The position numbers were made by a program, and so were the translations under genes. A DNA stretch of 48,833 nucleotides. It comes from an uncultured Ectothiorhodospiraceae bacterium (GTDB taxonomy: Bacteria; Pseudomonadota; Gammaproteobacteria; S012-40). Positions 18,272 through 45,951 of the stretch are shown piece after piece. The stretch lies in NCBI GenBank assembly GCA_945787715.1, contig CALZJE010000017.1, positions 1-48,833 of the forward strand, in the 5' to 3' direction. Below the pieces are notes generated by a model. It did not search any database and was not told the DNA's origin. It saw nothing but the letters and a program-made list of their open reading frames with translations. Each line of letters opens with the position of its first letter. Position 1 is the stretch's first letter.

Positions 18272-18481
18272 TTATTTTATTGCATCAAGCTCTGTGTAGT
18301 CGCTATCTATATCGTCAATTGGATTTGGATCAGAACTCGCTATACTATACTCCTCATCTGCCCACGCACCAAGATCAATGAGCTTACAACGCTCTGAGCA
18401 GAAAGGCCGCCACTTGGATTCTTTATTCCAGGTCACTTCTGCATTACATGTAGGGCAATTAACTATCATCTCAAAGTGCAC
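18272..18481 (-). CDS. yacG: DNA gyrase inhibitor / zinc-binding protein YacG
   Basis: A 65-69 residue zinc protein with Cys9, Cys12, Cys28 and Cys32 (NCPTCNAEV and [19 protein letters not shown]), the YacG fold. In E. coli YacG binds GyrB and inhibits gyrase. The acidic C-terminus is usual. The start is either GTG 18481, overlapping the upstream stop, or ATG 18469, immediately after it. It follows the CoaE-ZapD gene directly, the same coaE-zapD-yacG order as in E. coli, so it is translationally coupled. Confidence 0.92.
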
Positions 18482-19949
18482 AACAAAATAATTTAAAAAG
18501 TATATCCTGTTCTATCTGAACAGGGCGATCAAAACCATTTGGTTTAAGAAACCTCACTGTAAACCGCTGTCTTCCTCCACTTATCTCTGGAAAATAGAAA
18601 GCACCTTTAGGAACAATGACTCTTACCAGTTGATTTGCGATTCCGGTATCTAAAGAATGTTGATACAGACCTGCTTTTGTGGAAGCTTCACAAACCACAC
18701 CACTATTTCGCATCAACTTTAAAATCAAATTCAATGCCTGTTGTGGTTGCGAATAATGGCTCAACCAAATACGAATATCCTGACAACGACTTTCTATGTT
18801 TTTATTCAGCCAATGACCATACGCAGGCACATCCATTTCCAGTGCACCACCAGGTATGCTATCACGCTGCCTAATTGACATAATAAATTCATTCTGTTTA
18901 AGACCCTGACCTAATTGTCCGTCAATAGAGCGAAGATTCTTGGCCGCTACATTCACCTCTTCCTGAACCTGTTTGATATAAGAATCATCCGGCATGTCTT
19001 TCAACGTATATTTGCCGACAATCGCATTAATTCGATCTAGCTCTTTTAACATATCTGTTTTTATTTCAGGACGACTAAATATGTTCATTAAGGCGACAAA
19101 TGTATTAATCGCTGAGCGACTATCCCAATATGTATCGCCCTTGAGATGATGTTCCATTTCCTCAAAAAGTGATTCTAAACGAACCAAGGTTCGGATTTTT
19201 TCATTTAAAGGCAACTCATAAACTATCTCATCGCCAGGCGGGATAAACAGTTCAGCAGCTTTAAACAAATTAGGCGAATTTTTTTGCTGCGGCACATCGG
19301 TATTTTTTATTTTATTATTAGATATACCATTATCTGCTTCGATTGATTCTCCTTGAGGATTAACAAGCACTTTATATTTTTCATTTAAAGCTTCAACTTG
19401 TTGTAACAAATCTTCAATGTCGCCAGAATTATTAAGAACATCATCAGCTAGCGACAAGCGTGTTTGATTATCCACTTGACTATTTAATACCGCTTCAATC
19501 GCTTCTGCACTGGAATTATCTCTCTCCATTGTTCGTCGAACTTGCAGCTCTCTGGGCACATCCAGCACAAGAATACGATCGACCAGATCCGCTTGCCCCG
19601 TTTCAATCAGCAACGGTATAGCGATAATACAATAAGGATTATCAAGTAATTCAATTTGCTGGGACATTTTGAGTCGAATTAATGGGTGAAGAATGCTCTC
19701 CAACTTGACTCTTGATTTAGCGTCAGAAAATATCAAATCTCTAAGATATTGGCGATCTATCTCTCCTGATGACTTTAAAACTTTGTCACCAAACTCATTA
19801 ACAATCTCAACAAAAGCCGGTTGACCTGGTTGCACGAGCTCTCGCGATATTTCATCTGCATCAATTATTGGAACGCCTAACGCAGAGAATTTTTGCGTAA
19901 CTGTTGTTTTACCGCTTCCAATCCCTCCGGTTAATCCAATTTTGAGCAT
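18471..19949 (-). CDS. coaE-zapD: Fused dephospho-CoA kinase and cell division protein ZapD
   Basis: One uninterrupted frame of 492 residues joins two proteins that are normally separate neighbours. Residues 1-196 are a complete dephospho-CoA kinase (last step of CoA synthesis): P-loop GGIGSGKTT (8-16), [15 protein letters not shown], and [19 protein letters not shown] near the end. Residues about 197-240 are a polar Asn/Lys/Gln-rich linker. Residues about 241-491 are ZapD, which bundles FtsZ filaments: [53 protein letters not shown]. No internal ATG offers a separate ZapD start in the linker. It is in the pilBCD-coaE-zapD-yacG run. Confidence 0.93.
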
Positions 19950-20113: not shown

Positions 20114-20998
20114 TTAAAATGTGAGTGTCAAATATTGATCAACAATCACTTCCCCATACATCAAGGCAATCCAGCCGGCGATCGCTAGATAAGGCCCGAA
20201 AGGTATTGGATGGTCTTTGTTATGTTTTTTAAATAGCACAAGTGAAATGCCAATAATAGCGCCAACAACAGAGGATAACAATATGACAAGTGGTAACATC
20301 TGCCAGCCTAACCAGGCACCAAGAAGAGCAAGTAGTTTGAAATCTCCAAAACCCATTCCCTCTTTCCCAGTTACTAGTCTGAACAACTGGTAAACTAGCC
20401 ACAACGATAAATATCCCGCGACCGCTCCAATTATACTTGTTGACGAATTGACAAAAACGGCTTCGACACTAATGATCAAACCCAGCCATAATAGAGGCAG
20501 TGTGATGTCATCAGGCAATAGCTGGGTATCATAATCAATAAAAGTGAGCGCAATTAATGACCAGGTTAGAATCAGAGCAAATAGCGCCTGGACGCCAAAA
20601 CCGAAATGCATTGCTACCGAAACCGAAGCTACAGCCGTCAATAGCTCAACGAAGGGATATCGAAAAGAGACTCGACTTTTGCAATATCGACACTTTCCAG
20701 CAAGTATTAGATAGCTAAGTACAGGGATATTATCCCAAGCCGCAATAGGATGATGACAACTAGAACAGCGAGACCGAGGCAATGTTAAATCAAATTGCTC
20801 TTGCTGATCGTTATTTGAGTGAGAAATTACCTTATCATCAGCTAAAAACTCTTCACACTGCTTCTTCCAGTCCCGCTCCATCATTATGGGCAAACGATAG
20901 ATAACAACGTTTAAAAAGCTACCGATTAGAAGCCCGAGAACACCACATACAATACTAAAAGCAATAGGAGAGGAAGAAAAATAGTCGTATATAATCAT
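20114..20998 (-). CDS. pilD: Type IV prepilin peptidase / N-methyltransferase PilD
   Basis: A 294-residue inner-membrane enzyme that cleaves the prepilin leader and methylates the new N-terminus. The N-terminal GSFLNVVIYRLP leads into the cytoplasmic methylase domain with four zinc cysteines (78, 81, 103, 106: CSSCHHP and CRYCKSR). Catalytic aspartates are in FIDYDTQLLPD (155 or 157) and GMGFGDFK (Asp219). Seven to eight membrane helices are visible. It starts 12 bases after pilC and belongs to the pilBCD operon. Confidence 0.95.
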   Translation of the reverse strand: MIIYDYFSSSPIAFSIVCGVLGLLIGSFLNVVIYRLPIMMERDWKKQCEEFLADDKVISHSNNDQQEQFDLTLPRSRCSSCHHPIAAWDNIPVLSYLILAGKCRYCKSRVSFRYPFVELLTAVASVSVAMHFGFGVQALFALILTWSLIALTFIDYDTQLLPDDITLPLLWLGLIISVEAVFVNSSTSIIGAVAGYLSLWLVYQLFRLVTGKEGMGFGDFKLLALLGAWLGWQMLPLVILLSSVVGAIIGISLVLFKKHNKDHPIPFGPYLAIAGWIALMYGEVIVDQYLTLTF

Positions 20999-21010
20999 AA
21001 AGAAAGATAG

Positions 21011-22252
21011 TTAGAATACACTTCCCATTTGAAAAATTGGTAAATACATTGCCAGTATTAATCCCCCAATGATTACCCCTAAAATCACCATAATTAGCGG
21101 CTCCATCAAACTACTCATATTATCGACAGCATCATCAACTTCCTGTTCATAGAATTCAGCGACTTTATAAAGCATTCTATCCAATGAACCAGAATCCTCA
21201 CCAATTGCAACCATTTGCAGAGTCATACTTGGAAACAGTTTGCTTTGCGCCATCGCTACCTGAAGCTGTTGTCCCGTTGAAATCTCATCACGTATTTTCA
21301 ACACAGCATCACTAAAAACATGATTACCCGTTGCCCCTGCTACTGATTCCATAGCTTCAACAAGTGGGACACCTGCAGCAGACATAGCTCCCAAAGTCCT
21401 TGAATATTTTGCAACCGCGGCCTTTGTTAATAAAGACCCAATAATGGGCAGTTTTAATGATATACGATCGATTAGCGCTGCAAATCTCCTGTATTTTTTC
21501 CTTCCAGAAATAAATAAATAGCTCATTGATAAAATAACACCAAATATGATCAGCCACCATTCCTGAACAAATTCGGACATACTTATAACTAGTTTTGTAA
21601 GCGGTGGAAGATCAGCACCAAAACTTGAAAACAACTTATCAAATTGAGGGACAACCCATATAAGCAACACAACCGTTACAATAAATGCAACTATCAAAAC
21701 GGCAACAGGGAAAACCAATGCTTTCTTAATTTTAGATTTTAGTAATTCAGTCTTTTCTTTATATGTCGAAATTTTATTAAGTAAATTTTCTAAAATACCC
21801 GCTTGCTCTCCCGCTTTCACTAGATTGCAAAAAAGATCATCAAATTCTTTCGGATGTTTACTCAACGCTTGCTCCAGAGAACTCCCACCCTCAAGATCTA
21901 TCTTGACCGCATTGAGAAGCGTTTGCATTCCTGTATGGTCATTGCTTTTGCTTATTATCTCAAAAGATTGGACCATTGGAATTCCCGCTGACATCATAGT
22001 GGCGAGCTGGCGACTAAATACCGCAATATCTTTTGATTTGATATGTTTCCTGCCAGCCGAAAATAAACTAGTCGCCTTTTTTTTGACTTTTAAAGGAGAA
22101 ATACCCTGGCGTCGTAAATCAGCTTTAACCAATGCAGTACTCGCTCCCATGATCTCGCCTTTGTGTCGACTACCTCTTCGGTCTGTGCCCTCCCACAAGA
22201 AAGCCATTTGCTTAAGCGATTTTTTCTTTATTGTTTTTGCTGCTACGACCAT
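21011..22252 (-). CDS. pilC: Type IV pilus inner-membrane platform protein PilC
   Basis: A 413-residue platform protein with two GspF-type domains, each followed by membrane helices. Visible landmarks are FSRQLATMMSAGIPMVQSFEI, the repeated KYSRTLGAMSAAGVPLVEAMESVAG and the C-terminal DNMSSLMEPLIMVILGVIIGGLILAMYLPIFQMG. It couples the ATPases PilB and PilT to pilin insertion and removal. It lies 7 bases after the pilB stop, within pilBCD. The start is near FLWEGTDRRGSRHKGE; the first 15 lysine-rich residues are less certain. Confidence 0.95.
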   Translation of the reverse strand: MVVAAKTIKKKSLKQMAFLWEGTDRRGSRHKGEIMGASTALVKADLRRQGISPLKVKKKATSLFSAGRKHIKSKDIAVFSRQLATMMSAGIPMVQSFEIISKSNDHTGMQTLLNAVKIDLEGGSSLEQALSKHPKEFDDLFCNLVKAGEQAGILENLLNKISTYKEKTELLKSKIKKALVFPVAVLIVAFIVTVVLLIWVVPQFDKLFSSFGADLPPLTKLVISMSEFVQEWWLIIFGVILSMSYLFISGRKKYRRFAALIDRISLKLPIIGSLLTKAAVAKYSRTLGAMSAAGVPLVEAMESVAGATGNHVFSDAVLKIRDEISTGQQLQVAMAQSKLFPSMTLQMVAIGEDSGSLDRMLYKVAEFYEQEVDDAVDNMSSLMEPLIMVILGVIIGGLILAMYLPIFQMGSVF

Positions 22253-22259
22253 TATTCCC

Positions 22260-23957
22260 TCACTCCGAAGTCACCCGGCCTATCTCTTCAATACTGGTAA
22301 TACCTGCCTTTACTTTTTCGAGGCCTGCTCTTCTTAAATCCCATACGCCATCTTTTTTTGCTTGCATAGTAATAGCGGTCGAATTGCCGCCGTTTATAAT
22401 TATTTTTGAAATTGATTCAGTAATTGGTAAAACCTCAAACACACCTACCCTACCACGATAGCCCGAGTTGCACTGCTCACAACCTTCGGGACCATACAAG
22501 ATAAAAGAGCCTAATTCATCCGGTTCAAACCCCATACGCAATAGAACATCGTCAGGTAATTCGAGCGGCTGTTTACAAGCATGACATAATTCGCGAAGCA
22601 GCCGCTGAGCAATAATCAAAGAAACTGAAGCAACAATATTGTATGGCTCCACTCCCATGTTAACCAGCCGTGTCAATGTCTGCGGTGCATTGTTAGTATG
22701 CAGCGTGGACAGCACCATATGGCCAGTCTGAGCGGCTTTCATAGCAATCTCAGCAGTTTCTGTATCGCGAATTTCCCCAACCATAATAACATCTGGGTCT
22801 TGGCGTAAAAACGAACGCAAAGCAGCAGCAAAATCCAATCCGATTTTTGGATTAATATTTACCTGATTAATTCCCTGCATATAAATCTCGGCAGGATCTT
22901 CAGCTGTAGCTATATTGCGATCATTGGTATTAAGTATACTAAGCGCAGAATATAAGCTTACCGTTTTACCGCTACCTGTTGGTCCAGTAATTAAAACCAT
23001 ACCGTGTGGTTTTTTTATCGCATCGATAAACAGCTTCTTTTGATGTTCATCCATCCCCAAAGTATCAGCACCAAATTTCAAATTTCCTGAATCCAAAATC
23101 CTCAGCACTATTTTTTCACCAAATAACATTGGGCAAGAGCTTATTCGAAAGTCTATACTTCGGCTTTTAGTCAATTTGATCTTCATTCGACCATCTTGAG
23201 GTAAGCGCCTTTCTGTAATATCGAGTTGAGACATGACTTTCAATCTTGCAATAATTCTATTTGCTTGATTTGCCGGCGGCTTCGCTATCTCTTCAAGAAT
23301 TCCATCAATTCTGATTCGCACCCGAAAATTGCCTTCATAAACTTCAAAATGAATATCTGAAGCCCCCTTCTTAATTCCATCAATCAGCAGTTTATTAACA
23401 AACCGTACTATCGGTGCGTCTTCAACATCTGTTTCATTAGCGTCATTTGCAGACTCTTCCTCAACACCAAGAAATTCAAGGTCATCCAGTGTTGCATCAA
23501 TTAACGACGGAAGTTCAGATTCTTGAGTTTCAATAGATTTGTCTATTACGCGACTTAATGCTAAAGCCTCAGTCAATATAGGCTCAACATTTAATCCAGA
23601 ATGAAATTTAAATTGATTTAGTGCATTTAAGTTAGCTGGATCTGAAACGCCCACAAATAATTTATTACCACGCTTATAAAGAGGGAGTGCATTAAACTCA
23701 CGAACTAATTTAGAATCAATAAGCTTTAAAACATCAGAATCGTAATCAAAAGCTTCAATATCGAACAAAGGTAAGCCGAACTCTTCAGACAACGTATTGG
23801 CAATATTACTACTTTCAATAAGATGATGTTCTAACAGATAGCTGACAAAGCTCATCCCTTCACTAATTGCTTGCCTATATGCTCGATGAGCTTGTTCTTC
23901 AAACATCAAACCCTTATCAACGAGTCGTTTAGGTAATCCATTTAACGCAGTGCTCAT
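22260..23957 (-). CDS. pilB: Type IV pilus extension ATPase PilB
   Basis: A 565-residue cytoplasmic hexameric ATPase that powers pilus extension. It has an N-terminal MshEN-type domain (about 40-140). The GspE core has Walker A GPTGSGKT (325-332), Asp box TAEDPAEIY, Walker B VIMVGEIRD (390-398) and His box STLHTNN. A tetracysteine zinc site follows (CHACK 458/461, CEQC 493/496). The length is that of Pseudomonas PilB. pilT is not in the window. It is separated from pilA by a terminator, so it should have its own promoter. Confidence 0.96.
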   Translation of the reverse strand: MSTALNGLPKRLVDKGLMFEEQAHRAYRQAISEGMSFVSYLLEHHLIESSNIANTLSEEFGLPLFDIEAFDYDSDVLKLIDSKLVREFNALPLYKRGNKLFVGVSDPANLNALNQFKFHSGLNVEPILTEALALSRVIDKSIETQESELPSLIDATLDDLEFLGVEEESANDANETDVEDAPIVRFVNKLLIDGIKKGASDIHFEVYEGNFRVRIRIDGILEEIAKPPANQANRIIARLKVMSQLDITERRLPQDGRMKIKLTKSRSIDFRISSCPMLFGEKIVLRILDSGNLKFGADTLGMDEHQKKLFIDAIKKPHGMVLITGPTGSGKTVSLYSALSILNTNDRNIATAEDPAEIYMQGINQVNINPKIGLDFAAALRSFLRQDPDVIMVGEIRDTETAEIAMKAAQTGHMVLSTLHTNNAPQTLTRLVNMGVEPYNIVASVSLIIAQRLLRELCHACKQPLELPDDVLLRMGFEPDELGSFILYGPEGCEQCNSGYRGRVGVFEVLPITESISKIIINGGNSTAITMQAKKDGVWDLRRAGLEKVKAGITSIEEIGRVTSE

Positions 23958-24262
23958 TCAAACATCCTATATCATGAAAGATAAATAGCGTTTCATTGCG
24001 CCCACTTTATCTCATTCAATAAACCTGTTATCAAGTGACGCCTCTCAAGAATATATTTCCTTGAGTATAAGTGAGCATAAAAAAAAGCCCCTCAAGAGAG
24101 GGGCTAAAATGTGGGGAGGGAAGGACGGGGTGATCGGCAACAAGTAGCAAGCATTACTACAGTCCTTCCAACTCTGTAATAATCTACTTTTGATTACATG
24201 CGTAATCAGCGTTACCTAAATCTAGTAAATGCATATTTTGAGCCAATACTCATTTTGGAAAA
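23958..24262. other. Structured pilA 3' UTR and pilB upstream region
   Basis: 305 bp without a gene. Read on the minus strand, it holds about 155 nt of pilA 3' UTR with several stem-loops and a C-rich stretch, then the pilA terminator (24079-24105). About 120 AT-rich bp before pilB follow, in which I could not assign a promoter. Confidence 0.55.
24079..24105 (-). terminator. Rho-independent terminator of pilA
   Basis: A perfect 8-bp GC-rich stem (AGCCCCTC 24086-24093 with GAGGGGCT 24098-24105, loop AAGA) is followed on the minus strand by eight T. It separates highly expressed pilA from pilBCD. Confidence 0.9.
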
Positions 24263-24706
24263 TTAACAAAGCCCTGCATTTTGACACGACCCCGATATTT
24301 CCCAAGATATTACTCCCCTTGCCGCATCATCAGTAGGTGTTAATATGAACTCATAACCACTATCAGCATCAGTAGGATCTTCAAGAATAGTCGAGGTAGC
24401 TGTTATGACCGCTGTGTCTGCGGTAATATCAAGTGAATGTAAATTATCCACCCCTTTAGTAGGGTTGACCATACCAATTTCGTCATAGGTATCACAATCC
24501 TTCAAATCACCTGTTTGTAAACATATCCCTACACCGAGCTTTACTTTATTCGCAATTCGAACTGATTCAGAGAATTCTGTCCTTTCAATATATGATTTAT
24601 ATTGCGGCAAGGTGAAACCAACGAGCAGGCCTATAATAGCGATAACAATCATTAATTCAATCAATGTGAATCCATTCTGGTTTCTTTGTTTTTTTATTTT
24701 TTTCAT
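24263..24706 (-). CDS. pilA: Type IVa major pilin (prepilin)
   Basis: A 147-residue prepilin. A short positive leader (MKKIKKQRNQNG) precedes the cleavage site G/FTLIELMIVIAIIGLLV, with the +5 glutamate at residue 17. The methylated Phe13 would be the mature N-terminus, giving 135 residues. The C-terminal loop is closed by cysteines (GSCQNAGLC), and another pair is central (GICLQTGDLKDC). I chose ATG 24706 with AGGCGAG 7 bases upstream; a start at 24736 would lengthen the leader unusually. It is transcribed alone between pilR and pilB, with a terminator and a long 3' UTR. Promoter control by PilSR and sigma-54 is expected from family knowledge, but I could not find a clear sigma-54 site. Confidence 0.93.
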   Translation of the reverse strand: MKKIKKQRNQNGFTLIELMIVIAIIGLLVGFTLPQYKSYIERTEFSESVRIANKVKLGVGICLQTGDLKDCDTYDEIGMVNPTKGVDNLHSLDITADTAVITATSTILEDPTDADSGYEFILTPTDDAARGVISWEISGSCQNAGLC

Positions 24707-24984
24707 GAATTCTCGCCTAAAATAACTCTTTAACACTTTATAGCTTTAAGAATATCGCTACACCATCTTGCGGATAATAGAAGCACTCTTTGCAACTCAT
24801 CTCGCTACTTTAGACATTTTCTTAGAATTTTGTTTGTATATTCGTATAGCAAGTTTCTTAGAAAATTTATAAAAACTGATGAATAGCGAACTCTTATACT
24901 AGCCGATTCAATGGACCTATATGCTGAACTACGTCACATATTGACAATTTTTGTCACCCCAATGTGTCACTATTCCCCAACACA

Positions 24985-26325
24985 TTAGCCCATTTCCAGT
25001 TTTTTAAGTCGATATCGCAACTGACGAAAACTTATTCCTAAGAGTTTGGCAGCTGCGGTTTTATTATGCCTTGTCTTTTCCAATGCTTCCTTAATTGCCT
25101 CTTTTTCTATAGAGCCTAAATATGGATCTAAGGGAATTCGGGAATTGTCTAGAGAGTCAAGGTCACCCGGCTCTAAACCGGGAAGGCGTAAATCTTTTGG
25201 CTCAATCAAGTTTCCATCACATAGCGTCATTGCTCGTTCCAGAATATTTTCCAGCTCCCGGACGTTGCCAGGAAAGCCATATTGACAAAGCTTCATGACA
25301 GCCGCATTGCAAATCTTAACTTCACCAAGGCCTGAATCACGCGCCAAATTAGCTAATAAATGTTCAGCAAGCAAAGGGATATCTTCTGGATGCTCGCGCA
25401 AACTGGGCGCTCGCAGTTCAATGACATTGATTCGATAAAAAAGATCTTGGCGAAAATTTCCTTGTTGAACCATTTCAGCAAGATTTTTATGGGTAGCGCT
25501 TAATATGCGTACGTTAATGGGAATCTCTTTTTGCGCCCCAACTTGCCTTACTGCTTTTTCTTGAATGACGCGCAGAAGCTTAACTTGCATGTGCATAGGA
25601 AGGTCCGCTACTTCATCTAAGAACAGAGTCCCTCCATTTGCCACCTGAAAAAGGCCTTCTTTATCACTAATAGCTCCTGTAAAGCTCCCTTTTTTGTAGC
25701 CAAAAAATTCACTCTCCATTAAATGATCCGGAATCGCTCCACAGTTAACAGGTACAAAGACTCCATCACATCGAGGGCCTTGCTCATGGATCATGCGAGC
25801 TACTAACTCTTTGCCACTCCCAGATTCCCCGGATATATAAACCGGAGCTTGGCTGTTGGCTAATTTATTAATCACCGCTCGTGTATTTACAATCACAGCG
25901 GAATTCCCAAGCAGTTTTAATGTTCTCCGAATCGTCTTTTTAGCTATAACCTCCTGTTTTTCAACTTTTACAGCGGTGGCCACCATGTTTCTCAAGACTT
26001 GTAAATCGACAGGCTTGGAGACAAAATCAAAAGCGCCTGCTTTTAGCGCTTGAACCGCAGATTCTACATTGCCATGAGCAGTTATCATCGCAACTGGTGT
26101 ATTACCGTACTCCGTTGAAATTGTATCGACCAAGTCAATCCCATTACCATCAGGAAGACGCATGTCAGTTAAGCAAACATCATATTTATGTCGAGTTAAA
26201 AGAGCTCGAGCTTCAGCAATTGATCCTGCGGTATGAGAATCAATATCCATTCGGAGTAATGTGATCTGGATCAGCTCACAAATATCTGGCTCGTCATCAA
26301 CCACTAACGCTAAATAGCCTGACAT
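24985..26325 (-). CDS. pilR: Sigma-54-dependent response regulator PilR
   Basis: A 446-residue NtrC-family regulator. The receiver domain (1-120) has phospho-acceptor Asp54 (CLTDMRLPDG). The AAA+ domain (about 140-370) has Walker A GESGSGKE (166-173) and GSFTGA (213-218), a conservative variant of the canonical GAFTGA sigma-54-contacting loop. A C-terminal Fis-type helix-turn-helix follows (NKTAAAKLLGISFRQLRYRLKK). It overlaps pilS by 1 base (TAATG), so the pair is coupled. Given its place directly upstream of pilA, it is PilR rather than another NtrC-type protein. Confidence 0.94.
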   Translation of the reverse strand: MSGYLALVVDDEPDICELIQITLLRMDIDSHTAGSIAEARALLTRHKYDVCLTDMRLPDGNGIDLVDTISTEYGNTPVAMITAHGNVESAVQALKAGAFDFVSKPVDLQVLRNMVATAVKVEKQEVIAKKTIRRTLKLLGNSAVIVNTRAVINKLANSQAPVYISGESGSGKELVARMIHEQGPRCDGVFVPVNCGAIPDHLMESEFFGYKKGSFTGAISDKEGLFQVANGGTLFLDEVADLPMHMQVKLLRVIQEKAVRQVGAQKEIPINVRILSATHKNLAEMVQQGNFRQDLFYRINVIELRAPSLREHPEDIPLLAEHLLANLARDSGLGEVKICNAAVMKLCQYGFPGNVRELENILERAMTLCDGNLIEPKDLRLPGLEPGDLDSLDNSRIPLDPYLGSIEKEAIKEALEKTRHNKTAAAKLLGISFRQLRYRLKKLEMG

Positions 26326-27968
26326 TAGCGTGCTCTTCTTTTTATTACATTTGAAAATGTTAACCTAAAACAACTGCCCCCTGCCTGATCCCGAAGGTAA
26401 TCCAGGTGTGCTTGGTTTGCTTCCGTCAGTTCTCGTGCGATATACAAGCCCAAGCCGGTTCCTTTTGTTGCTGTTGTAAAAAATGGCTCAAAAATTTGCT
26501 CAACCATCTCTTCACTCACTCCACTTCCATGATCGATAACATCCAAATATGGTGAATGGGAATCTGTCAACTCCCCCCCTTTAATCTCAAGAATCCACTC
26601 ACAAGCATCACATAATCCATGCCGTAGTCCATTTTGAGACAGGTTCCATAATATTTGATGGAGGTGGCTTGGATCAACAGATACCTGCAAATCATTAGGG
26701 AAAACTTCCAATAGTATCTTACTTAACTCAATATCATGAACACGACAAAACTCAAGTACAAACGCATCTAACCAAGGTTTTAATAAGATGAGCTCTGGGA
26801 TGGCTTTATCTCGCCGACTAAGCTGCATGACGTTTTCAATAATGACATTCATACGAACAGATTGCTCACGAATAATTTGTGTCAACCTTCGGTCAGCCTG
26901 ATCGAGATTGGTTGACTCTTCAAGCAATTGACTTGCATGACTTATTGCTCCTAAAGGATTCCGTATTTCATGTGCGATACTGGCTGTTAGGCGCCCTAAA
27001 GCAGTAAGTTTTAGATGCTGAGCTTGCTGATCAAGAAAAGAAGTATCCTCTAAGATAATTAATGTTCCTGCATAATCTTGCATCCCAAGCCGGATAAAAC
27101 GGGGGTATATTGCATTTACACCAGATACACGAAATGTTTCAGGTTCATATTGATTATCATTAAGCCACTGCATAAGCTCAACATTTAAGGCTATTGACAC
27201 ATCAACAACGGGTCTCAATTCGTCTTTTGCAGGCATCCCAAGCAAATACCAGGCAGCCTCGTTCATTAAGCGAATATGCATCCGATTATCAACAACTAAA
27301 ACACCAGATCCCATTCTCTGAATAATAAATTCGTTTAGCTGCCCCATATTCACGAGATCGACCCCGCGCTGAGCGGCAAGAACCGCACTATCTCTTAGCT
27401 GCTTTGCTAATACATTGGACAATATTGCAGAGATAAAAAGCGTGGCGCATAAAAGACCAGTCTGCACAAAATAATATCCATGGCTATCAAGCCATATCAA
27501 TCGATAAGTCTGTTCTAATGCAACGATCAGAGCCGCGCTAGTCGCATAAATAAAAGCGACACGGCCATTGCACAAAATCCCGACACTTGCCACCGTAACC
27601 ACAAGCAACACTCCTAAACCACTATCAATGCCACCACTTGCATGCATGCAGATTGTGATTATGCAAATGTCCACAAATGAGTGAACATAAACTTGCAGAT
27701 TGAAAGAAGGCGCACGGTAATACGAACTCATGATTGAAAAAAGCGCATATATCAGGAAGATATTTGAAGCAATAAAAAAAACAATAGGATTTTCTTTCCC
27801 CAACAGGCTTGGGGCAGGGAGAAACAGATAGGAAATAATAAATATTACAGCAAGTGCTAATCGATAGAACCCGATAAGATAGAGAGCATGCCATGACGAA
27901 TCAAGAGGTGTGTTAAACTGCCTTTTATCCTTTACACCTACGCCACCGCGATGCATTATGTCATTCAC
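26325..27968 (-). CDS. pilS: Type IV pilus sensor histidine kinase PilS
   Basis: A 547-residue membrane sensor kinase. It has six hydrophobic segments in residues 25-190 and a PAS-like domain (about 210-310, MGSGVLVVDNRMHIRLMNEAAWYLLG). The HisKA domain carries the phosphorylated His333 (LTASIAHEIRNPLGAISHASQLLE), and a HATPase domain follows (NLSQNGLRHG, DHGSGV, GTGLGLYIARELTEAN). In Pseudomonas PilS senses pilin level in the membrane and phosphorylates PilR. The start is uncertain among ATGs in the first 15 residues. Confidence 0.94.
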   Translation of the reverse strand: MNDIMHRGGVGVKDKRQFNTPLDSSWHALYLIGFYRLALAVIFIISYLFLPAPSLLGKENPIVFFIASNIFLIYALFSIMSSYYRAPSFNLQVYVHSFVDICIITICMHASGGIDSGLGVLLVVTVASVGILCNGRVAFIYATSAALIVALEQTYRLIWLDSHGYYFVQTGLLCATLFISAILSNVLAKQLRDSAVLAAQRGVDLVNMGQLNEFIIQRMGSGVLVVDNRMHIRLMNEAAWYLLGMPAKDELRPVVDVSIALNVELMQWLNDNQYEPETFRVSGVNAIYPRFIRLGMQDYAGTLIILEDTSFLDQQAQHLKLTALGRLTASIAHEIRNPLGAISHASQLLEESTNLDQADRRLTQIIREQSVRMNVIIENVMQLSRRDKAIPELILLKPWLDAFVLEFCRVHDIELSKILLEVFPNDLQVSVDPSHLHQILWNLSQNGLRHGLCDACEWILEIKGGELTDSHSPYLDVIDHGSGVSEEMVEQIFEPFFTTATKGTGLGLYIARELTEANQAHLDYLRDQAGGSCFRLTFSNVIKRRAR

Positions 27969-38984: not shown

Positions 38985-39920
38985 GTGACAAAAAAACGTA
39001 TTCACGTTGTTGCTGCAGTTGTTAAGCAGAACAAAAAAATCTTGATCGCCAAACGAGCTAAGCACCTCCATCAAGGAGGGCTTTGGGAGTTCCCTGGTGG
39101 AAAAATTGAGTCAAATGAGTCACCACTGCTTGCATTAAAACGAGAACTCTTTGAAGAACTCAATATTAAACTCTCTACTGCACAACCATTAATTAAGATA
39201 GACCACGACTATAGTGATAAGTCTATTTGCCTTGATGTCTGGCAAGTTTCCAAATTTAGTGGTGAAGCCATTGGAAAAGAAGGACAGGATGTTCTCTGGG
39301 TATCAGCAGATAAACTAAATAGCTTTGATTTTCCTGCGGCAAACAAACCGATTGTCACTGCTGTACAACTTCCTCAGAAATATTTAATCACGCCAGATCC
39401 CAGTTCTATGGACGAACAGCAGTTTCTAACACGATTAGAAAAAGCTTTTAAAGGTGGCATTACCTTAGCTCAACTCAGGTCAAAAACACTCCCTTTAGAC
39501 AATCTCTCTCAGCTTTATAAAAAAGCGCAAAAGATCGCAACTCATCACCAAGCCACCCTAATGCTAAATTGCTCTATTGATGATGCCAACACAATGGGAG
39601 TTGGATGCATTCATCTGTCATCACAAAATTTACTTAGCCTGAACACGCTTCCTGATCACTTATTCATTGCTGCTTCATGCCATAACCAAGTTGAAATAGA
39701 AAAAGCTTGTGAATTGGGTGTCGACTTCATTGTTATTGCACCCGTAAATAACACAAAGACTCACCCGAGCACACTACCATTAGGCTGGGGAAAGTTTAGA
39801 TCACTATGCCAAATTTCTACTGTTCCAGTATTTGCGCTGGGTGGAATGCAAACAAATGACATTGTAAATGCGGTTGAAAATGGTGCACAAGGCATCGCTG
39901 CCATTCGCGCACTATGGTGA
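38985..39920 (+). CDS. Nudix hydrolase (MutT) fused to a ThiE-like domain
   Basis: A 311-residue two-domain protein. Residues 1-130 are a MutT-type Nudix hydrolase that should cleanse 8-oxo-dGTP: Nudix box GKIESNESPLLALKRELFEEL (39-59). Residues about 135-311 resemble thiamine phosphate synthase (GGITLAQLRSKTLP, CSIDDANTMGVGCIHLSS, DFIVIAPVNNTKTHP, PVFALGGM). This MutT-ThiE fusion is known in several gammaproteobacteria; the role of the second half is unknown. The start is GTG 38985, 10 bases after lspA and without a clear ribosome-binding site, so it likely depends on upstream translation. Confidence 0.9.
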   Translation: MTKKRIHVVAAVVKQNKKILIAKRAKHLHQGGLWEFPGGKIESNESPLLALKRELFEELNIKLSTAQPLIKIDHDYSDKSICLDVWQVSKFSGEAIGKEGQDVLWVSADKLNSFDFPAANKPIVTAVQLPQKYLITPDPSSMDEQQFLTRLEKAFKGGITLAQLRSKTLPLDNLSQLYKKAQKIATHHQATLMLNCSIDDANTMGVGCIHLSSQNLLSLNTLPDHLFIAASCHNQVEIEKACELGVDFIVIAPVNNTKTHPSTLPLGWGKFRSLCQISTVPVFALGGMQTNDIVNAVENGAQGIAAIRALW

Positions 39921-40138: not shown

Positions 40139-41332
40139 ATGGAAACTACATATTCAGGTAATGACGTTTTATTTATTTTGCTGGGCGCAATCATGGTTCT
40201 TGCTATGCATGCAGGTTTTGCCTTTCTGGAAGTCGGAACTGTTCGCAAGAAAAATCAAGTAAACGCTTTAGTGAAAATCATTTGCGATTTTGCGGTATCA
40301 ACAATCGCGTATTTCTTAGTCGGCTTTGGCATTGCATATGGTGTGGATTTTTTCGCTAGTGCAGAAACCCTGTCAGAGAAAAATGGCTATGAGCTGGTAA
40401 AATTTTTCTTCTTAATGACTTTTGCTGCAGCAATTCCAGCTATTATTTCTGGTGGTATCGCGGAGCGAGCTAAATTCTATCCACAATTAATTGCGACTGC
40501 TGTTCTTGTAGCTCTGGCCTATCCATTCTTTGAAGGCATTATTTGGAATGGTAACTTCGGCATCCAGGATTTGTTAGAAAAGAGTTTTGGTGCCCCATTT
40601 CACGACTTTGCAGGCTCGGTTGTTGTCCATGCCATAGGTGGTTGGATAGCGCTTGGTGCTGTAATAATGCTCGGAGCACGGTACGGTCGTTACTCTAAAG
40701 CTGGTGTTATCTCCACTCACCCACCTTCAAGCATTCCTTTTCTGGCACTTGGTGCATGGATTCTGACAGTAGGTTGGTTCGGATTTAATGTCATGTCAGC
40801 CCAAACTGTTGAAGCAGTAAGCGGCTTAGTTGCACTAAATTCATTGATGGCCATGGTGGGCGGCATATTAGCAGCGCTTGTTGCTGGAAAAAATGACCCT
40901 GGCTTTATACACAATGGCCCACTTGCAGGCTTGGTTGCTGTTTGTGCAGGCTCTGATGTCATGCATCCAATGGGAGCATTGGTAACTGGCGTAATTGCTG
41001 GAGCTGTCTTTGTTTGGACATTTACGTTAGCGCAAAATAAATGGAAAATCGATGATGTTCTTGGCGTTTGGCCACTGCACGGTATTTGTGGTGCTTGGGG
41101 AGCAATCGCGGCAGGCATTTTCGGTCAACAAGCGCTTGGCGGAATGGGTGGTGTAAGCTTTGTTTCTCAAATTATTGGAACACTTGGCGGCGTCTTATTT
41201 GCTACTGCCGTGGGATTCTTGGTATACGGTGCACTGCGGCAAACAATGGGATTACGTTTATCTCAAGAAGAAGAATATAACGGCGCCGACTTAAGCATCC
41301 ATAAAATTCAGTCTGAATACGACAAGGATTGA
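40139..41332 (+). CDS. amt: Ammonium transporter Amt
   Basis: A 397-residue trimeric channel of 11 helices conducting ammonium/ammonia. The pore twin histidines are His164 (GSVVVHAIGGW) and His314 (VWPLHGICGAWGAIAAG), and FLEVGTVRKKNQVNALVK and GGIAERAKF are conserved. It lacks a cleavable signal sequence, unlike E. coli AmtB. A PII protein (glnB) lies 5.2 kb away, not adjacent as usual. It has its own terminator; no sigma-54/NtrC site was found in the 218 bp upstream. Confidence 0.95.
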   Translation: METTYSGNDVLFILLGAIMVLAMHAGFAFLEVGTVRKKNQVNALVKIICDFAVSTIAYFLVGFGIAYGVDFFASAETLSEKNGYELVKFFFLMTFAAAIPAIISGGIAERAKFYPQLIATAVLVALAYPFFEGIIWNGNFGIQDLLEKSFGAPFHDFAGSVVVHAIGGWIALGAVIMLGARYGRYSKAGVISTHPPSSIPFLALGAWILTVGWFGFNVMSAQTVEAVSGLVALNSLMAMVGGILAALVAGKNDPGFIHNGPLAGLVAVCAGSDVMHPMGALVTGVIAGAVFVWTFTLAQNKWKIDDVLGVWPLHGICGAWGAIAAGIFGQQALGGMGGVSFVSQIIGTLGGVLFATAVGFLVYGALRQTMGLRLSQEEEYNGADLSIHKIQSEYDKD

Positions 41333-41492: not shown

Positions 41493-41876
41493 TTACTGAG
41501 CCACCCCAAAATCATCTATATAATTACGTAATGTCATAAACAGCATCACATTATCATCTACATTATGGTTGCTAAAATGGATTCCCATTCGATAGACATC
41601 ATCAGAGAGTTTTTCTTGCCAAACGACCTCAGCTTGAATCTGCACGTTAAAATCCTCTGCTTCATATCCAATGGTAATATTTGACTTAGTCGCCAAATAA
41701 CTATCAAGCAGTATTCCCATACCAGAAATAGATACATCATTTACTTGATTGAACTCTATTCTTTCACTTCCAATTCCGATATGAAACTTCCCTGGTATTT
41801 GTTCATACGCAAGGTTCGCTCTTTCATGCTGACGTTTATCAATAACGTCAAGCGGTTCCTGTCTAGCATTATTCAT
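41493..41876 (-). CDS. PilZ-domain cyclic-di-GMP-binding protein
   Basis: A 127-residue cytoplasmic protein consisting of one PilZ domain. Both ligand motifs are intact: RxxxR (RQHER, residues 15-19) and (D/N)xSxxG (DVSISG, about 47-52). It should therefore bind cyclic-di-GMP. Its output partner is unknown. It is not the pilus-assembly PilZ, which lacks the motifs and sits beside holB/tmk. It is monocistronic with its own terminator. Confidence 0.9.
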   Translation of the reverse strand: MNNARQEPLDVIDKRQHERANLAYEQIPGKFHIGIGSERIEFNQVNDVSISGMGILLDSYLATKSNITIGYEAEDFNVQIQAEVVWQEKLSDDVYRMGIHFSNHNVDDNVMLFMTLRNYIDDFGVAQ

Positions 41877-42279: not shown

Positions 42280-42400
42280 GTAAGAAACTGGCACAGGGAG
42301 TGCATTATTATAAATGTATCATCTGACCCTCCCTTAGGTGATACGCATTTTTCTTTCATCCTCCCTTAAAGGGTACTGAATTTCAGTACCCTTTTTTTTA
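42280..42400 (+). ncRNA. Candidate small RNA with two anti-Shine-Dalgarno-like motifs
   Basis: A strong plus-strand terminator (below) follows no plus-strand gene, so it must end an unannotated transcript. Just before it is a stem-loop with an 8-bp stem (42316-42323 with 42337-42344) whose C-rich loop carries CCTCCCTTA (42328-42336). The same 9-mer recurs in the single-stranded linker at 42360-42368. It is the 16S rRNA tail sequence CCTCCTTA with one extra C, so it could pair with ribosome-binding sites of mRNAs. A weak promoter may be TTAAAA-18-TATATA (42248-42277); another is TATAAT at 42127. The 5' end is therefore uncertain. Confidence 0.55.
42368..42400 (+). terminator. Strong rho-independent terminator without an upstream gene
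   Basis: GGGTACTG (42371-42378) pairs with CAGTACCC (42384-42391), extendable with AAA/TTT, and is followed by eight T. It points on the plus strand, opposite to both flanking genes (the PilZ and ZIP genes are minus). Confidence 0.9.
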
Positions 42401-42479: not shown

Positions 42480-43286
42480 TTAATGAAGTGTGGAGTGAGC
42501 CATGTAGATAACAAGTATGCCTAATGTTATTAGACTAATTTGTTGCAAACTCTCTTTGGGAGCTGTTCGTTTATGTAAACCTGGAATTAAATCTGCCACG
42601 GCGATATAGATAAAACTGGATGCGGCAATAGCAAGAATGTAAGGAACAATCGCTTCTGCAGAACTCAGACTATAATAGGCAATCAATGCACCCACAACGG
42701 TTGCCAAGCTTGCGAGCATGTTAAAAATCAGTGCTTTGGTGCGGGAAAATCCACTTTGAAGGAGAATAGCAAAATCTCCCACTTCTTGAGGAATCTCATG
42801 CGCGGCAACAGCTAGAGCTGTCACTATTCCTAAGTGAATATCAGTAAGAAATGCGGCGGCGATCAAAACCCCATCCACAAAGTTATGGACACCATCACCA
42901 ACCAAAACTAATGACCCGGCAGCCGAAGCTTTTTCGTCATTATGCTTATGATGATGCTCTTGATGCTCATCTGCGCCATGCACTTCACACTCTATCGAAT
43001 GGCAATGCCGCCAAAGTACTAATTTTTCCAGCAGGAAAAAGGTAAGAATCCCGATTAGCACCGTTAAAGTAATATCATGTAAATCCTCTACTTGAGGAGA
43101 TATTAGCGCATGGGGTAATAGTCCGAGAAAAGCAGCTCCCAGCAGAGCGCCAATGGCGAAACTTACCATATGAGGCAATAATCGGATTCGACCTTTTTCA
43201 GGAATCAATAAAAAAACAGAAGCAGCGAGCACGCTGAGTACGCCACCAAGTAAGCTAAAAACAAGAATCCAGGTCAGAAGTGACAT
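42480..43286 (-). CDS. ZIP-family metal transporter
   Basis: A 268-residue inner-membrane protein with about eight helices. The metal site is in helices 4 and 5: HNFVDGVLIAAAF and AVAAHEIPQEVGDFAI. A cytoplasmic histidine-rich loop precedes it (about 100-120; HGADEHQEHHHKHND). The family imports zinc, iron or other divalent metals. It resembles the ZIP/ZupT and GufA-like proteins; the substrate is undetermined. It stands alone. No Zur or Fur site was recognised upstream. Confidence 0.92.
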   Translation of the reverse strand: MSLLTWILVFSLLGGVLSVLAASVFLLIPEKGRIRLLPHMVSFAIGALLGAAFLGLLPHALISPQVEDLHDITLTVLIGILTFFLLEKLVLWRHCHSIECEVHGADEHQEHHHKHNDEKASAAGSLVLVGDGVHNFVDGVLIAAAFLTDIHLGIVTALAVAAHEIPQEVGDFAILLQSGFSRTKALIFNMLASLATVVGALIAYYSLSSAEAIVPYILAIAASSFIYIAVADLIPGLHKRTAPKESLQQISLITLGILVIYMAHSTLH

Positions 43287-45201: not shown

Positions 45202-45951
45202 ATGTTGAAAATAAAACCCAAAATCATTTTATTACTTGTCTTCTGTTTCACTCTACTCACTGCTTGCGCAACAACGCCTGAAGATGAAGAAGAATTTGAC
45301 GATAAAACCGCAGGTGCTCTTTACGAAGAGGCCAAAGCTGCTCTTTCTCAAGAAGATTACGAGACCGCAATTCAAAAATTAGAATCATTGGAAGCACGCT
45401 TCCCTTTTGGCAAATATGCTCAACAGGCACAAATGGATATGGCGTTTGCGTATTATAAATTTGAAGAGCCGGAATCCTCTATCGCTTCAGCCAATCGCTT
45501 TATAAAACTTTACCCACGACACCCTCATGTAGATTATGCTTATTACCTGAAAGGTCTGGTGAAATTCGAACAAGGGCAAAGTGTATTTGATGGATTAGCA
45601 TCTCAAGACCCAGCCAAACGAGACCCGGAAGCCGCAAATCGCTCATTTCAATATTTCAGAGAATTAGCTAGTAAATACCCTCAAAGTAAATATTCTGCTG
45701 ATGCTATAGAGCGTATGAAGTATTTAAAAAACAATCTCGCTAAACACGAATTGTTGGCAGCACAACATTATATGGAGCGCAGTGCATATGTCGCCGCAGC
45801 TAACCGAGCAAAATATATTGTGGAAAACTTTCAAACCACACCAGTAATGCCAGACGCATTATTATTACTCGCAAACGCTTATGACAAATTACGTTTGCAC
45901 GATCTCGCTACAGATGCGAGACGTGTTTACGCTCACAATTATGAAAAATAG
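45202..45951 (+). CDS. bamD: Outer-membrane assembly lipoprotein BamD
   Basis: A 249-residue lipoprotein with lipobox LLTAC (Cys22) and a TPR superhelix (LYEEAKAALSQEDYETAIQKLESLEARFPFGKYAQQAQMDMAFAYY split over residues 45-90). It is an essential part of the BAM complex that inserts beta-barrels. Conserved SIASANRFIKLYPRHPHVDYAYYLKGL is present. A TATAAT (45142-45147) about 60 bases upstream is a likely -10, but the -35 is unclear. Confidence 0.96.
   Translation: MLKIKPKIILLLVFCFTLLTACATTPEDEEEFDDKTAGALYEEAKAALSQEDYETAIQKLESLEARFPFGKYAQQAQMDMAFAYYKFEEPESSIASANRFIKLYPRHPHVDYAYYLKGLVKFEQGQSVFDGLASQDPAKRDPEAANRSFQYFRELASKYPQSKYSADAIERMKYLKNNLAKHELLAAQHYMERSAYVAAANRAKYIVENFQTTPVMPDALLLLANAYDKLRLHDLATDARRVYAHNYEK

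Follow-up and report, generated by a model that had tools for sequence, protein, structure and literature searches.

A predicted sigma-54-dependent small RNA with a conserved anti-Shine-Dalgarno linker in one GTDB family

Described anti-Shine-Dalgarno and sigma-54-dependent small RNAs

The cuckoo or alpha-r14 small RNAs, which include NfeR1 of Sinorhizobium and the Rfam family ar14 (RF02344), carry repeated C-rich anti-Shine-Dalgarno motifs that are unpaired, and their stems diverge freely (PMC10746234, PMC3927594). The NfeR1 promoter has no sigma-54 signature, and repression by NfeR1-type RNAs is predicted to occur via pairing with ribosome-binding sites (PMC10746234). In Neisseria meningitidis, 2 anti-Shine-Dalgarno motifs in NmsRA and NmsRB mediate the down-regulation of TCA-cycle enzymes (PMC5362039). 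The RpoN-dependent RNA CJnc230 (FlmE) of Campylobacter jejuni is 98 nt long, and its 2 stem-loops flank a single-stranded anti-Shine-Dalgarno stretch of 12 nt (PMC11187230). Finally, enhancer-binding proteins control the Qrr small RNA genes, which have the element TGGCA-N7-TGC, given as canonical for the sigma-54-dependent qrr1 of Vibrio fischeri (PMC10162802).

Here we describe a predicted small RNA of this functional kind, identified in a 48.8 kb stretch of DNA (48,833 nucleotides), the whole of which is referred to as the window. It resembles the cuckoo/ar14 RNAs in the repeated C-rich anti-Shine-Dalgarno motifs in unpaired regions and in the diverging stems. However, the latter belong to Alphaproteobacteria and have 3 or more hairpins with CCUCCUCCC, whereas the constant copy is here located in a linker, the core is CCUCCC and the promoter is of the putative sigma-54 type. 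Instead of the 3 hairpins each with CCUCCUCCC that characterize ar14, the window RNA contains 2 hairpins and CCUCCC. The ar14 (RF02344) covariance model gave no match on the window RNA at E-values up to 10, and the sole hint of ar14 in a relative was on the opposite strand, with 25.7 versus 58.8 bits. We noted a second candidate anti-Shine-Dalgarno RNA in genome G002 (L095:1647-1745, minus strand), which converges on the sigma-54 one and consists of a hairpin with the loop CCCTCCTCCCTCCCTCA followed by a terminator, with sub-threshold matches to ar14 (25.7 of 58.8 bits) and SorX. A hairpin with the loop ACCCTCCTCCCCTCCCTCC followed by a perfect terminator in G493, from another class of the same phylum (L128, minus strand, about 1500-1590), also looks cuckoo-type.

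The other systems each share a part of the arrangement. Like NmsR, the window RNA is a small RNA with 2 anti-Shine-Dalgarno motifs, but the NmsR RNAs have -35/-10 promoters and are tandem sibling genes, whereas the RNA described here is single-copy with a sigma-54 element, and no sequence relation was detected. It is similar to CJnc230 in having a single-stranded anti-Shine-Dalgarno stretch between 2 stem-loops. However, CJnc230 is processed from the flgE mRNA and has the motif CCUU, while here the RNA has its own predicted promoter directly at the hairpin and the motif CCUCCC. No flgE neighbor was present in the window, where the adjacent genes are pilZ, zip and amtB, nor was one recognized at the loci of the relatives. 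With the Vibrionaceae Qrr RNAs, it shares the stand-alone small RNA gene and the -24/-12 element TGGCA-N7-TGC, but Qrr has its own pairing region, in place of which an anti-Shine-Dalgarno linker is found here. The Qrr model gave no match on the window RNA at the gathering threshold or at E-values up to 10, and no LuxO site (TTGCAWWWTGCAA) was recognized upstream of the RNA.

No Rfam family reached the threshold on the window RNA, at either gathering or relaxed settings. The best weak lead was suhB/MmgR (RF00519), at 22.1 bits versus a gathering threshold of 41; the likeness consists of a pyrimidine-rich UUUCCUCCCU linker followed by a terminator, with motifs that are not mutually aligned in the match. 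No published description of the RNA was found among open-licence papers. It looks like a new small RNA family within a known functional kind. RNAs of this class have been described before; what is unusual is that such a promoter is combined with a modular motif. By analogy, the RNA would work like a functional mixture of Qrr (sigma-54 control), CJnc230 (the linker stretch) and the cuckoo RNAs (repeated C-rich loops), and it adds a comparative case in which an anti-Shine-Dalgarno RNA is wired directly to sigma-54.

Architecture of the locus and its putative promoter

The initial annotation had described 2 copies of a C-rich 9-mer, CCTCCCTTA, together with a hairpin and an intrinsic terminator at 42280-42400, all of which are present in the window (Table 1). 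The copies are on the plus strand, 32 nt apart, and there is no third copy in the 48.8 kb. The chance expectation for the 9-mer in the window is 0.24, and 2 copies occurred anywhere in 2 of 100 shuffles, never 32 nt apart. The strand was said to be without a gene for 1 kb, which agrees with the nearest plus-strand genes, amtB, ending at 41332, and a bamD-like gene, starting at 45202; the RNA is an orphan on its strand, since no plus-strand gene is located between them.

Table 1. Coordinates of the predicted RNA, its elements and its neighbors in the window
Feature	Position	Strand	Remarks
Putative sigma-54 -24/-12 promoter element CTGGCACAGGGAGTGCA	42288..42304	+	GG and GC 10 nt apart
Predicted small RNA, ~86 nt	42315..42400	+	Start from promoter geometry, end from terminator; homology
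5' hairpin, 12 pairs, loop CCCUCCC (42327-42333; first C-rich copy)	42315..42345	+	Fold -12.1 kcal/mol, z -5.8
First CCTCCCTTA	42328..42336	+	Only 5' part in loop
U-rich single-stranded linker, with the conserved anti-Shine-Dalgarno segment UUCAUCCUCCCUU at its end	42346..42367	+	
Second CCTCCCTTA, the conserved linker copy	42360..42368	+	
Intrinsic terminator, 12 pairs, then T run	42368..42399	+	Covarying stem across relatives
Divergent PilZ-domain gene, conserved neighbor	41493..41876	-	PF07238, 36.4 bits
ZIP-family metal transporter gene, convergent neighbor	42480..43286	-	PF02535, 133 bits

None of 200 dinucleotide shuffles folded as well as the region 42280-42400 (z -5.0). In the fold of the region, the linker 9-mer was paired with GGGAG near 42296-42300, a pairing that is not expected in the RNA, since the GGGAG segment is inside the putative promoter, which makes up about 35 bp of the interval. 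In the predicted ensemble of an RNA starting at 42315, the second 9-mer was indeed located in the linker, as previously noted, and was unpaired with a probability of 0.98. The order of the elements was a 5' hairpin, an unpaired linker and a terminator. The stem-loop that had been thought to expose the first 9-mer does display CCCTCCC in its loop, but TTA is in the stem, leaving about 6 of the 9 bases exposed. Similarly, the terminator had been called perfect with 8 T: the 12 pairs and the T run at 42392-42399 are there, in a stem-loop at 42368-42394 with a 3-nt loop, but the first 3 T pair with AAA and only about 5 are free.

A coding RNA was rejected, with no ATG in the predicted transcript and a 13-codon GTG frame, lacking a ribosome-binding site, that was dismissed by eye. 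Two GGGAGG...ATG lookalikes on the minus strand were the complement of the C-rich copies and opened no frame of 60 codons.

The initial annotation had overlooked the putative sigma-54 promoter, which is the best evidence that the RNA is a gene. The element is the only match to TGGYAY-N6-TGC in the window on either strand, and the geometry of CTGGCACAGGGAGTGCA predicts a transcription start that coincides with the opening base of the 5' hairpin, at about 42315. In all 9 members identified in the family, TGGCAY-N6-TGC was followed by exactly 11 nt and then by the TG that opens the 5' hairpin, which places a -24/-12 element about 12 nt before the predicted start in each of them.

Sigma-54 promoters are silent unless a specific activator signals. 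Under sigma-54 control, the RNA would therefore be made only while some enhancer-binding protein is active. At least 11 full sigma-54 activator candidates were identified in the window's genome, including FleQ and a PilR-like protein, the latter encoded in the window at 24985-26325. FleQ could not be singled out as the activator, being encoded in all 13 genomes of the family. In genome G003, the RNA is located 2.2 kb downstream of a gene for a response-regulator-type sigma-54 activator. Searches for an activator site upstream of the 9 promoters, using k-mers and dyads, yielded nothing that beat the best of the shuffles. GTCAA/TTGAC repeats were present in 7 of the 9 upstream regions, at a level not above the best shuffle k-mers, and are a lead only. 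We also observed a type IV pilus cluster in the window (20114-27968, minus strand). It includes a PilS/PilR-like pair as well as a pilA-like gene, whose upstream region contains GACAAAAATTGTCAA, similar to the weak GTCAA repeats that precede the small RNA.

Distribution and conservation among relatives

The search set consisted of the 13 genomes of the GTDB family, including the window's genome (G000; 4.4 Mb in 227 contigs), which contains a single copy of the RNA. Homologs were identified in 9 of the 13 genomes. A tenth member, in G001 from the same genus as the window's genome, is cut by a contig end and retains the terminator and the ZIP neighbor. BLAST recovered the RNA in G003, and weaker matches pointed to G004, G007, and G010. 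When the 13-base linker pattern was used without the promoter, 6 sites were found in the family, of which 5 had both promoter and hairpins; the sixth, in G002, was rejected as the complement of a ribosome-binding site. A covariance model (R1), built from the linker and the terminator only, with neither the promoter nor the 5' hairpin included, detected the RNA in 3 more genomes, G002, G006, and G012 (E 7e-4 to 3e-3), whose copies are more diverged and each have CTGGCAC-N6-TGC at the same place. For the strict element, about 18 sites were counted on the 2 strands of 1.4 Mb of sequence, with some loci overlapping, which corresponds to a background of 1.3e-5 per position. The independent confirmation of the promoter at one fixed position in these 3 genomes is for this reason not attributed to chance.

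The covariance-model search did not find the RNA in G008, G009, and G011. In wider scans, for which the patterns were strict and weak matches were filtered, no convincing member was seen outside the family, neither in 369 genomes of the class (pattern scan) nor in 398 genomes of the phylum (model scan). A promoter-plus-linker scan of a contig collection of 84,980 species returned only family members and chance matches. Other matches outside the family that were inspected represented coding sequence or bare terminators, or were without the module.

The linker sequence CAU(C/U)CUCCCU was present in all 9 members, with a C-to-U change at one position in one of them. In the linker, UCAUCCUCCCU was identical in the first 6 members, and the other 3 read UCAUUCUCCCU (G002) and ACAUCCUCCCU (G006 and G012). 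In the predicted ensembles, the linker motif was only about 55% to 60% unpaired in G004, G006, and G012. The stem sequences differ among the members with the pairing kept. In the terminator, 8 of 10 pairs were changed on both sides in the model-fitted alignment, which leans towards structure and contains one minus-strand match, and the covariation score was 0.66, compared with 0.23 for shuffles and 0.12 to 0.26 for slid controls. Between the 5' hairpins of G000 and G003, one pair was changed on both sides in compensatory fashion, C-G to U-A, and another went from U-G to U-A. The pattern that had been proposed to speak against the small RNA, namely 9-mers that vary freely while the terminator is kept, is thereby reversed: all 9 members have the conserved linker, and it is the terminator that differs in sequence. 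The comparison supports, as a predicted function, the earlier suggestion of a small RNA that acts in trans and has its anti-Shine-Dalgarno motif accessible.

As regards the 2 copies of the 9-mer, one linker copy is constant in the family, but the exact pair is particular to the window's genome. A second C-rich copy was located in the 5' loop in 4 members (G000, G003, G006, and G012) and in the terminator loop in 5 (CCUCCC in G010, UCCCCCC in G005, CCCCUCCC in G002, and CCCCCC-containing loops in G006 and G012), while G004 and G007 had it in neither loop. From these alignments, the rule in the family appears to be a constant linker copy with a second C-rich copy in the 5' loop, the terminator loop, both or neither. 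Terminators would not by default be expected to have large C-rich loops, and the C-rich motif itself therefore appears to be under selection. Moreover, the display position of the C-rich module differs among the relatives with one linker copy constant, which suggests that the motif has been gained repeatedly, probably convergently; the shifting module bears on the evolution of multi-target small RNAs.

The RNA was divergent from one particular PilZ-domain gene (PF07238) in 8 of the 9 members, at a distance of 0.1 to 2.5 kb. Beyond this gene, several members contained argJ, an FKBP gene, ispH, a STAS gene, cheY-like and cheA genes (some names assigned by eye). The zip gene also adjoins the RNA in G001, G004, and G012, and on this side zip, pgeF, rluD, bamD-like and nitroreductase-like genes (some again named by eye) were found in both G000 and G004. 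The locus has moved in G003. The locus is syntenic, and the RNA has descended vertically at this single site in the family. The PilZ gene was considered as a conserved target of the RNA and rejected, as no consistent pairing was seen. Two adjacent Lcl_C-domain (PF07603) genes were located directly downstream of the RNA on the same strand in G004 (L145:4504-6114) and, as a homologous pair, in G005 (L149).

Predicted mechanism, targets, and alternative explanations

The locus combines an intergenic RNA, a terminator and a conserved accessible motif of the CCUCC type, the features taken here to characterize an anti-Shine-Dalgarno small RNA. The linker is complementary to AAGGGAGGAUGA, a strong Shine-Dalgarno sequence plus the bases after it, in line with the initial annotation, which had considered the motif complementary to a near-ideal ribosome-binding site. 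The RNA is U-rich around the C-rich motif, and Hfq is encoded in 13 of the 13 family genomes. We consider it likely that the locus encodes a stand-alone sigma-54-dependent trans-acting small RNA whose linker pairs with the Shine-Dalgarno regions of several mRNAs. The gene, its promoter, the conserved linker and the structures are indicated by the alignments.

According to this reading, an enhancer-binding protein would activate sigma-54 RNA polymerase at the -24/-12 element, and transcription would run from about 42315 to near 42400, where the terminator ends. The 5' hairpin would cap the RNA and in G000 also display CCCUCCC, and the single-stranded linker UCAUCCUCCCUU would pair with AAGGGAGGAUGA-like Shine-Dalgarno regions of several mRNAs, probably helped by Hfq on the U-rich stretches. 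This pairing would keep the 30S subunit off the mRNA, and the extra C-rich loops may serve as added contact sites. Such repression of initiation via ribosome-binding sites is the simplest working model, and it has been reported for the NmsR RNAs (PMC5362039). We infer transcription, Hfq binding, translational repression and more than one target.

Target prediction around start codons, which the initial annotation had suggested, produced scattered genes, none of them recurrent among the members. This was the outcome for searches with both RGGGAGGAT-N3-10-ATG and AGGGAGGATGAGA with one mismatch, where the candidate sites belonged to YceI-like, fliE-like, c-type cytochrome and radC-like genes (names by eye). 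Near-perfect linker sites at start codons were few and not common to the members, and the duplex energies for the window's genes were not informative on targets.

The absence of a recurrent gene with a near-perfect start site speaks against an alternative that we regard as unlikely. In this alternative, the small RNA exists and is driven by sigma-54, but a longer linker segment (UUUCUCUCAUCCUCCCUU) directs it to a single specific mRNA or to a few of them, such that the Shine-Dalgarno overlap would only mark where the site is located and there would be no broad repression. This alternative agrees with the conservation that extends past CCUCC, with UCAU before and U or UU after, and with UAUUUUCAUUUUUCUCUCAUCCUCCCU being common to G004 and G010. 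It does not account for the additional C-rich loop copies, which lack the linker context.

Several exposed C-rich copies per molecule could also be expected of a sponge, the C-rich loops of which would bind a G-rich small RNA, mRNA leader or protein and withhold it, with no direct translational repression. This is very improbable, however, since a G-rich partner would be needed in all 9 genomes and none was found, and the obvious complement of the motif is the Shine-Dalgarno sequence. Furthermore, the transcript displays no GGA, the sequence to which CsrA-type proteins bind. Finally, there might be no independent gene at all, the feature being the terminator or leader of a neighbor, or else a bare terminator between genes in which the C-rich repeats arose by chance. 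This is scarcely credible, although intergenic terminators are common and a gene follows the RNA on the same strand in G004 and G005: the 9 genomes share the promoter at its fixed spacing, the constant linker and stems that covary, and the next genes on either side in the window are on the opposite strand.

Beyond the preferred reading of a trans-acting RNA with several targets, we tentatively raise the possibility of a signal-gated brake: a sigma-54-switched RNA with one to three interchangeable anti-Shine-Dalgarno modules, in the 5' loop, the linker and the terminator loop, which would dampen translation initiation on many mRNAs with strong Shine-Dalgarno sequences at once. Such an RNA would be lineage-specific, with an origin separate from that of the alphaproteobacterial cuckoo RNAs, and would be tied to the neighboring PilZ and chemotaxis signaling genes. 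If confirmed, the RNA would be tractable for asking how selective a mimic of the 16S tail can be.

Among other observations on these genomes, 2,348 bases were 100% identical between L140 (G000:C166) and L141 (G003:C290), which belong to different genera, suggestive of either a recent mobile element or shared assembly contamination. The window also contains a frame of 492 codons (18471-19949, minus strand) that by eye represents a fusion of dephospho-CoA kinase (CoaE) with a ZapD-like domain, and a frame at 38985-39920 (plus strand) in which, again by eye, a MutT-type Nudix domain is joined to one that is ThiE-like.
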